From a virus: a stretch of 64,000 nucleotides of DNA. The stretch's first letter is position 1; each line of letters starts with the position of its first letter. The notes below the pieces were generated by a model. It was not told where the DNA came from and did not search any database. It worked only from the letters and a program-made list of their open reading frames with translations. The DNA is taken from IMG/VR virus record IMGVR_UViG_3300012954_000009, positions 1-64,000 of that record; one strand, given 5' to 3'. Shown in pieces: positions 4,964-12,901 of the stretch. The position numbers were made by a program, and so were the translations under genes.

Positions 4964-5037
4964 GGTCCCATAGCTCAACTGGATAGAGCAACAGCCTTCT
5001 AAGCTGTAGGTTCTAGGTTCAAATCCTAGTGGGATCA
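4964..5037 (+). tRNA. tRNA-Arg (anticodon UCU)
   Basis: All four arms fold. The acceptor GGTCCCA (4964-4970) pairs with TGGGATC (5030-5036, one G-T pair). The D arm is GCTC/GAGC. The anticodon stem ACAGC/GCTGT holds loop CTTCTAA with anticodon TCT. The T arm CTAGG/CCTAG holds loop TTCAAAT. The discriminator is A5037 and CCA is not encoded. UCU reads AGA/AGG, and AGA is visibly the preferred Arg codon across the window. Confidence 0.96.
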
Positions 5038-11768: not shown

Positions 11769-11889
11769 AGTAGATTGGGGAGCTGCAACAGGGTGTTAGA
11801 CCAGACGTGGCAACGAGTGCATAAGGATGTCAAATTACAATAGCTATTGTGCGCAATAGTGTGACCAGGGCTCCAGCTCCCAAACTACT
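11769..11889 (+). ncRNA. Structured RNA element between SSB-like and primase genes
   Basis: The 133-base intergenic region is closed by a 15-bp helix. AGTAG-A-TTGGG-G-AGCTG (11769-11785) pairs with CAGCT-CCCAA-A-CTACT (11874-11889), with one A-A mismatch and one bulged G. Inside are small hairpins AACA/TGTT (11787-11797), CCA/TGG (11801-11810) and GCA/TGC (11810-11820). A fourth, GTCA/TGAC (11829-11832 with 11862-11865), encloses CTATTG-TGCG-CAATAG (11844-11859). CAATAG also occurs at 11838-11843, so two pairings compete. The helix ends five bases before ATG 11894. I match it to no known RNA family. Confidence 0.7.
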
Positions 11890-11893
11890 TTAA

Positions 11894-12901
11894 ATGTACA
11901 ATATGATAAATACTAAAAAACTTGTAGTAAATATATCAGATGTACCAAGCTATTGGGTTTTCCAATACTATTTAAATCTTAGTGAGAAGTTAACTGGACA
12001 GGATGTAAAGATTAAATCAATCTTTAATCCATCAGAAAGAACACCAAGCATGTGTTTATATGTAGATAAGGCCGCTAATATAGATGGCTCAAAAGCAAAA
12101 CAATATGTCTACAAGGATTTCTCAACAGGTAAATATGGTAATAAGATACATTTAGTTATGTATCTTTTTGATATACAGTTTGCTTATGCTGTGGATAAAA
12201 TAGTGAATGATTACAATAAATTTATACAGAGTGAAAGCTTTGAAGATATTGTATTAAAACCACAAGCACGGTGGAAAGTAGATTATATAAAGAAAAGACA
12301 ATGGACAAAAGCTGATGCAAACTTTTGGTTACCCTTCAATATAGGTGTTAGTATGCTAACATATTATAATGTCTATCCAATAGAATATTATAATTTAATT
12401 CTTGAGGAGGATGGTAATTCAAAGAGTAGTAAAATAAGCGGTCCAGGTATTTATGGATACTTTGATAAAGATGATAATGTATATAAGATTTATAAACCTT
12501 ATAGTAAAAAGCATAAATTCTTCAAAGTTAAACCTCATCTGCAGGGATTAGATCAACTAAAGTATAACCAACCGTATCTAGTTATATGCTCATCTTTAAA
12601 AGATGCTATGTGTATAAAGAGTATGGGTTATAATATAGAAGTTCTTGCACCTGATAGTGAGAATACTGTTATTAAACCTTATGTGCTTGAGAATTTAAAG
12701 ACAAAGTATAAGAAGATAATTACTTTGTTTGATAATGATGAAGCAGGTAAAGCAGCAGTAGATAAATACAATAAGTTATATAACATAACAGGGATAGTAT
12801 CCCCTTTATGTAAGGATATATCAGATGCTATGAAAGAACATGGCTTTGACATCCTTCATAAAGGACTTAAACCTTTACTAAAAAATGTAATAAATGGCTA
12901 A
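11894..12901 (+). CDS. DnaG-type primase with Toprim domain, 335 aa
   Basis: Synthesises RNA primers for replication. The Toprim signature is visible around residues 228-300: ICSSLKDAMCIKSMG in the acidic-motif position and FDNDEAGKAA (DxDxxG) near 277-286. The N-terminal part (PSERTPSMCLYVD) matches the strand region after the zinc finger in DnaG, but no zinc-binding Cys/His set is present. A second ATG at 11903 is less constrained by the upstream RNA helix and may be the true start. It overlaps the RusA gene by eight bases. Confidence 0.78.
   Translation: MYNMINTKKLVVNISDVPSYWVFQYYLNLSEKLTGQDVKIKSIFNPSERTPSMCLYVDKAANIDGSKAKQYVYKDFSTGKYGNKIHLVMYLFDIQFAYAVDKIVNDYNKFIQSESFEDIVLKPQARWKVDYIKKRQWTKADANFWLPFNIGVSMLTYYNVYPIEYYNLILEEDGNSKSSKISGPGIYGYFDKDDNVYKIYKPYSKKHKFFKVKPHLQGLDQLKYNQPYLVICSSLKDAMCIKSMGYNIEVLAPDSENTVIKPYVLENLKTKYKKIITLFDNDEAGKAAVDKYNKLYNITGIVSPLCKDISDAMKEHGFDILHKGLKPLLKNVING

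Follow-up and report, generated by a model that had tools for sequence, protein, structure and literature searches.

The boundary between the genes for an SSB-like protein and a DNA primase in a virus record from IMG/VR raises the question of whether the DNA lying there encodes a structured RNA and, if so, what this RNA might do. The stretch of DNA analysed (64,000 nucleotides, hereafter the window) is derived from a record of 102,473 bases (IMGVR_UViG_3300012954_000009) and is part of a crAss-like phage genome of ca. 102 kb. An initial annotation, made from the sequence alone, placed a structured RNA at 11769–11889, and its presence is borne out by covariation, detection with a model blind to the window, and strong conservation.

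Genome context and flanking genes

The primase encoded in the window shows ca. 30% identity to Crassvirales primases, and the gene order Sak4-like protein, SSB-like protein, primase is common to the window and the crAss-like phage cr6_1. The product of the upstream gene (Table 1) matches no family in Pfam or PHROG. Its AlphaFold model (pLDDT 84.7), compared with the PDB by Foldseek, gives PrgE and many bacterial SSBs as top matches, the best E-value being a weak 3e-3; the designation SSB-like is supported by this predicted structure, with modest E-values. The initial annotation put the element just before a start codon, and ATG 11894 indeed lies 4 nt past its end; however, ATG 11903 is the likelier start of the primase gene, because the primases of relatives begin at the residue which it encodes. 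The primase genes of L017 and L018 contain one in-frame TAG stop each in an otherwise intact primase, and these codons may represent recoding, a sequencing error, or a pseudogene.

Fold of the window element

The element folds into a three-way junction of stems P1, P2, and P3 (Table 1) and not into the four small independent hairpins described earlier. The closing helix is present together with its mismatch and bulge, but instead of the 15 bp originally counted it comprises 14 pairs plus the mismatch: the outer pairs AGTAG/CTACT (11769–73/11885–89), an A·A mismatch (11774/11884), TT/AA (11775–76/11882–83), a single bulged G at 11777, and the inner pairs GGGAGCT/AGCTCCC (11778–84/11875–81). The base of P2 shows a double change, being GCA/UGC in the window and GCU/AGC in L097, L112, and L118, and so does its tip (A-U to U-A in relatives), and the support for the middle helix consists of one-sided changes only. 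P3 occurs in close relatives as GGA/UCC, GGG/CCC, or UGG/CCA. In the window its hexaloop is enlarged by the inserted hairpin CTATTG-TGCG-CAATAG, found only in the window, L001, and L002 and absent from L097, L112, and L118. At positions 11791 and 11800 the window and L001 both differ, jointly, from L002; an alternative hairpin of 3 bp, if it forms, is thereby displaced by one register, from UGG/CCA to GGU/ACC.

Table 1. Features of the SSB–primase gene boundary and of the RNA element located there
Feature	Position	Strand	Basis
Upstream gene, SSB-like OB-fold protein, 222 aa	11092..11760	+	ORF, AlphaFold model, and Foldseek
Structured RNA element, whole	11769..11889	+	Blind match of model R2 at 11772–11889, 26.9 bits, E 2e-5
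P1 closing stem, 5' strand	11769..11784	+	Sequence; P1 covariation across relatives
P2 base, 5' strand GCA	11785..11787	+	Pairs with 11818–11820
P2 middle helix, 5' strand UGUU	11794..11797	+	Pairs with AACG 11812–11815
P2 tip, hairpin CCA-GACG-UGG	11801..11810	+	GACG invariant
P2 middle helix, 3' strand AACG	11812..11815	+	Pairs with UGUU 11794–11797
P2 base, 3' strand UGC	11818..11820	+	Pairs with 11785–11787
Single-stranded UAA joining P2 and P3	11822..11824	+	UAA invariant in the alignment
P3, 5' strand GGA-U-GUC	11825..11831	+	Pair changes in close relatives
P3 apical helix, 5' strand UAC	11836..11838	+	Pairs with 11861–11863; counterpart helix of relatives covaries
Insertion hairpin CTATTG-TGCG-CAATAG in P3 loop	11844..11859	+	Comparison with relatives
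P3 apical helix, 3' strand GUG	11861..11863	+	Pairs with 11836–11838; counterpart helix of relatives covaries
P3, 3' strand GGC-UCC, contains first GCTCC	11869..11874	+	Pair changes in close relatives
P1 closing stem, 3' strand, contains second GCTCC	11875..11889	+	Sequence; P1 covariation across relatives
Downstream gene, Toprim DNA primase	11894..12901	+	Pfam Toprim_2; PHROG 12622 DNA primase

The repeats from which alternative foldings had been deduced are present (CAATAG at 11838 and 11854, CTATTG at 11844, GCTCC at 11870 and 11876), but the foldings themselves do not hold. A competition of the two CAATAG copies for CTATTG fails on steric grounds, as 11838–43 abuts 11844–49 and the missing loop makes a local hairpin impossible; moreover, L097, L112, and L118 are entirely devoid of CTATTG. 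The GCTCC copies, proposed to allow a register shift in the closing helix, are each conserved in a role of their own: the first belongs to the 3' strand of P3 and the second to P1.

The RNA family, covariation, and conservation

The common three-way junction is found in a family of 27 distinct sequences, the larger subgroup of which was recovered through a second motif search. In the family layout P1 closes the structure, the P2 arm ends in the tip CCW-GACG-WGG, and a single-stranded UAA(U) leads to P3 with its conserved hexaloop; the base of P2 consists of G-C, Y-R, and then U-A (A-U in the window), and P3 of an internal loop and an apical helix. Two separate RNAalifold runs, one with 17 members of the large subgroup and the other with six window-type sequences, gave layouts that agree, and GTTAGNCCAGACGTGGCAAC is identical in the window type and in L097, L101, and L112. 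A member with a ca. 45-nt insertion in the P2 arm lies at 2726–2874 of L284, where a second large structure of the terminator type is located just upstream of it.

Double changes are seen at 14 of the 22 pairs (matched by 0 of 500 shuffles) and 93% of pair cells are standard, compared with 31–47% when the partner is slid by 1–3 columns, these counts being inflated by the fitting of the 27-sequence alignment to a covariance model. A MAFFT alignment made without such a fit points the same way, with 92.3% of cells paired, double changes at 14 pairs, and a match by none of 500 shuffles, for a structure drawn up by the analyst with that alignment in view. The search for compensatory changes, named at the outset as a way to refute the structured RNA, thus yielded double changes, and the structured RNA survives.

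Covariance models, whose E-values the tool itself describes as rough, were used to link the two subgroups. The model R1, built from the large subgroup alone, finds L118 at an E-value of 2e-15 and L097 at 5e-14, and the large and window-type subgroups therefore constitute one family. Its score on the window is 18.7 bits, barely above the 17.1 bits of a chance match in a coding region, and for this reason a second model, R2, was built; its training set additionally comprises L097, L112, and L118 and leaves out the window and its near-identical relatives L001 and L002. The blind match of R2 to the window (Table 1) stands well above the best background score of 17.6 bits, and no spurious matches at an E-value of 0.1 were found in 0.86 Mb of related phage DNA. 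Two further matches of R1/R2 were discarded: one at G000 83828–83907 (17 bits), antisense to a long ORF, was considered a chance match and used as the background level, and another in G028 (L301; 16–18 bits) lies at that level. In the cultured or annotated crAss-like phages cr6_1, Lbo-JY46, and bajarodcaudo virus 1 R2 gave no match. The family, of structured RNAs of ca. 80–120 nt from marine crAss-like phages, is unlisted, and the window element belongs to it as a divergent member.

The information content is 1.43 bits in the unpaired core, 1.31 in the paired core, and 0.69 in the flanks. The window and L002 show 3 differences in the 124 bases of the element, compared with 23 of 69 and 21 of 91 four-fold sites in the flanking genes; the element is thus near-invariant against a fast synonymous clock. 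The minimum free energy of the window element is not above chance (z −1.2; 27 of 200 shuffles are as good), and so folding energy alone could not carry the claim of a structured RNA. The same value, together with a position typical of plain terminators, would suit an explanation in which the RNA is only an elaborated terminator hairpin with a core devoid of function. This is very improbable in view of the invariant loops, whose conservation disfavours it, the near-zero divergence against fast synonymous sites, the retention of the RNA at unrelated sites, and the weak U-tract in the window.

Comparison with catalogued RNAs

The family is new relative to Rfam 15 and the open-access papers searched. 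Rfam 15 (4227 models) gave nothing for the window, either at the gathering threshold or at E-values up to 10, and nothing for the relatives up to 5. The earlier opinion that the element is not a tRNA or tmRNA is upheld both by this lack of an Rfam family and by ARAGORN, which finds in the window only a tRNA-Arg at 4964. A blastn comparison of the elements of the window, L019, L097, and L208 with 50,697 phage records returned only short chance matches, and a 19-nt motif searched for in 84,980 bacterial and archaeal genomes was met once, by chance, inside a Reyranella coding sequence. No paper describing an RNA at the SSB–primase gap was found in the open-access literature.

Several more specific candidates were rejected. 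The hammerhead core CUGANGA ... GAAA is not present: most members have CCAGACGUGG and no counterpart of GAAA, and CUGACGA is confined to the CCU-GACG-AGG sublineage and is not conserved. A pseudoknot between UUGC in the P3 loop and the GCAA next to the P2 hairpin, compatible with some members, is broken in L200, L215, L017, and L029, while the pairing of GUUG with CCAAC instead of CARC is broken in L200, L221, and L275.

Other RNAs in the SSB–primase gap

A second, unrelated RNA located in this gap in some phages (L024, L207, L211, L212, L222–L224, L233, L234, L236, L239, L241, L249, and L250) comprises an H-type pseudoknot that includes an AGUAAG hairpin and has a terminator behind it. In this RNA 97.5% of pair cells are standard and 12 of 23 pairs show double changes (0 of 500 shuffles); its copies in L024, L207, L212, and L223 had no match in Rfam, and the pseudoknot-plus-terminator layout looks riboswitch-like. 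In cr6_1 (L305 3789–3913) the gap contains a terminator-like hairpin, and the stretch after it (AGCCTG..GTAGTTCGATTCTAC..CAGGCT) is reminiscent of the acceptor stem and T-arm of a tRNA from which the D and anticodon arms are missing. The gaps of L056, L054, L057/L069, L205, L203/L206, L062, and L026 are larger and structured-looking and belong to neither RNA family; GTTAATACACTTGT is common to those of L026 and L205, and that of L062 comprises a small lipoprotein-like ORF (MKKLFLSLSLVAMCGLYSCDTKDA...) flanked by two structured stretches.

Occurrence and genome positions

The SSB–primase gaps were collected by primase searches of IMG/VR. Among 154 distinct primase-plus-gap combinations, 99 have short gaps (up to 84 nt, mostly with a simple hairpin), 25 contain the three-way-junction RNA, 15 the pseudoknotted RNA, and 15 other sequences. 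The plain hairpins look like intrinsic terminators, because they typically have a T-run behind them; the longest run has a mean of 4.9 there and of 3.1 in the element set. On the primase tree (a quick, approximate FastTree) there are at least 10 switches between presence and absence of the RNA in the gap, and L200 and L201, with flanks alike, have the element in one gap and a short hairpin in the other.

The RNA occupies six or more different gene boundaries. It follows a gene for a 217-aa protein in L026 and L030, two different small genes, before the same gene, in L279 and L283, a gene for a 199-aa protein in L286, and a DNA polymerase gene in L288, while in L316 it lies 5 nt before a tRNA-Arg gene; related genes adjoin it in L288 and L316, on one side in the former and on the other in the latter. 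The copy of G003 is located 9 kb from the primase gene, whose gap contains a plain hairpin with a T-run (a terminator), and that of G048 12 kb from it, with the different, pseudoknotted RNA in the primase gap. Most copies are at the SSB–primase gap, but this share is biased, as the loci come mostly from primase-centred searches. The RNA is always co-directional with the upstream gene, usually close behind its stop codon, and never exceeds one copy per searched record (about 60 records, some of them fragments). It is dispensable, given the many long related records without a copy.

The location just behind a stop codon in every context, the compact fold with highly conserved unpaired bases, and the exchange for stable structures of other kinds (e.g., the H-type pseudoknot) could point to an element for RNA processing or protection of the 3' end, perhaps a ribozyme that cleaves itself, separating or stabilizing the SSB mRNA. 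Such a role is improbable: no Rfam ribozyme family was matched, and a mere protection element would need no invariant loops, nor is there reason to expect that it would occur only once in a genome.

Terminator features and possible cis-acting regulation

Behind the window stem there is only TTTAAATG, the tail being TTTAAATGTA with a longest T-run of 3, and no terminator is called at the element; since there is no U-tract behind it, this stem probably does not make an efficient intrinsic terminator on its own. L279 and L283, in contrast, have a perfect U-tract immediately after the stem and resemble intrinsic terminators in full. The element might, with a rather low probability, be a cis-acting attenuator, in which a binding core within a terminator-like stem senses a ligand or protein and sets the read-through into the next gene, here that of primase. 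Consistent with this are the U-tracts of L279 and L283, the replacement by the element of a plain hairpin plus T-run occupying the same site in most relatives, the L200/L201 pair with its common flanks, and the existence of riboswitches embedding an aptamer in a terminator, described in PMC6478431. The attenuator is opposed by the diversity of downstream genes (a tRNA gene in L316), the absence of a called terminator in the window, the shorter T-runs of the element set, and the abundance of primases without the element. A riboswitch would be expected to have a conserved core, which is present, and a constant downstream gene, which is not, and this absence disfavours a primase-specific switch; the reading as a primase switch is also weakened because relatives carry the RNA elsewhere while the primase gap holds something else. 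A cis-acting regulator serving different genes may nevertheless be compatible with the varying downstream gene.

A proposed free-standing small-RNA gene

The initial annotation left a choice between a riboswitch, an attenuator, and a stable phage RNA; the last is favoured here, and the first two, as regulators of primase, have lost ground. The tentatively preferred explanation is that the element is a small-RNA gene of the phage in its own right. The RNA would be transcribed as the 3' tail of the mRNA of the preceding early gene (here the SSB-like gene), would fold so that the long P1 stem holds its two ends together, and would be kept, or presumably processed, as a stable RNA. Its conserved unpaired parts, i.e., the GACG loop, the UAA(U) junction, the P3 hexaloop, and the CC of the internal loop, could then bind a protein, a ligand, or an RNA, and the RNA would probably act in trans, independently of its neighbours. 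The single copy per record and the several genomic sites are consistent with such a small-RNA gene. On the other hand, the co-orientation close behind a stop codon also fits a cis-acting mRNA 3' end, and a cis-regulator could likewise be single-copy and move between genes.

A bolder proposal, itself unlikely, is that the RNA represents a new phage-encoded trans-acting family which moves between gene boundaries of crAss-like phages, settles in terminator-type stems, and serves counter-defence or host takeover, the SSB–primase gap being a swap site for unrelated modules (the three-way junction, the H-type pseudoknot, and others).

Little is recorded on non-coding RNA of crAss-like phages in the papers searched, and the present analysis adds a defined RNA family whose pairs covary, along with a covariance model that works, and so opens the way to targeted small-RNA sequencing and searches for binding partners. 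The RNA moves between gene boundaries yet stays at most single-copy in the searched records, and the SSB–primase gap is a place of exchange of whole RNA modules.

Comparison with known systems

The element resembles intrinsic (Rho-independent) terminators in its location after a stop codon, in a stem sometimes provided with a U-tract, and in replacing plain terminators at the same site; it differs from them in its large conserved three-way-junction core and, in the window copy, in the lack of a clear U-tract. The HMP-PP (thiS) riboswitch, a terminator-embedded aptamer according to PMC6478431, likewise has a conserved core inside a terminator-like stem; the element differs from it in having no sequence or Rfam match and no constant downstream gene, and its upstream gene varies. 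The general three-way-junction layout is common to the element, the purine riboswitch, and the hammerhead ribozyme, but the element has no Rfam match and lacks the hammerhead core. Finally, the element is like phage-encoded stable or small RNAs in general in being a single-copy accessory RNA of the early or replication region, but no described family was found that it matches in sequence or structure.
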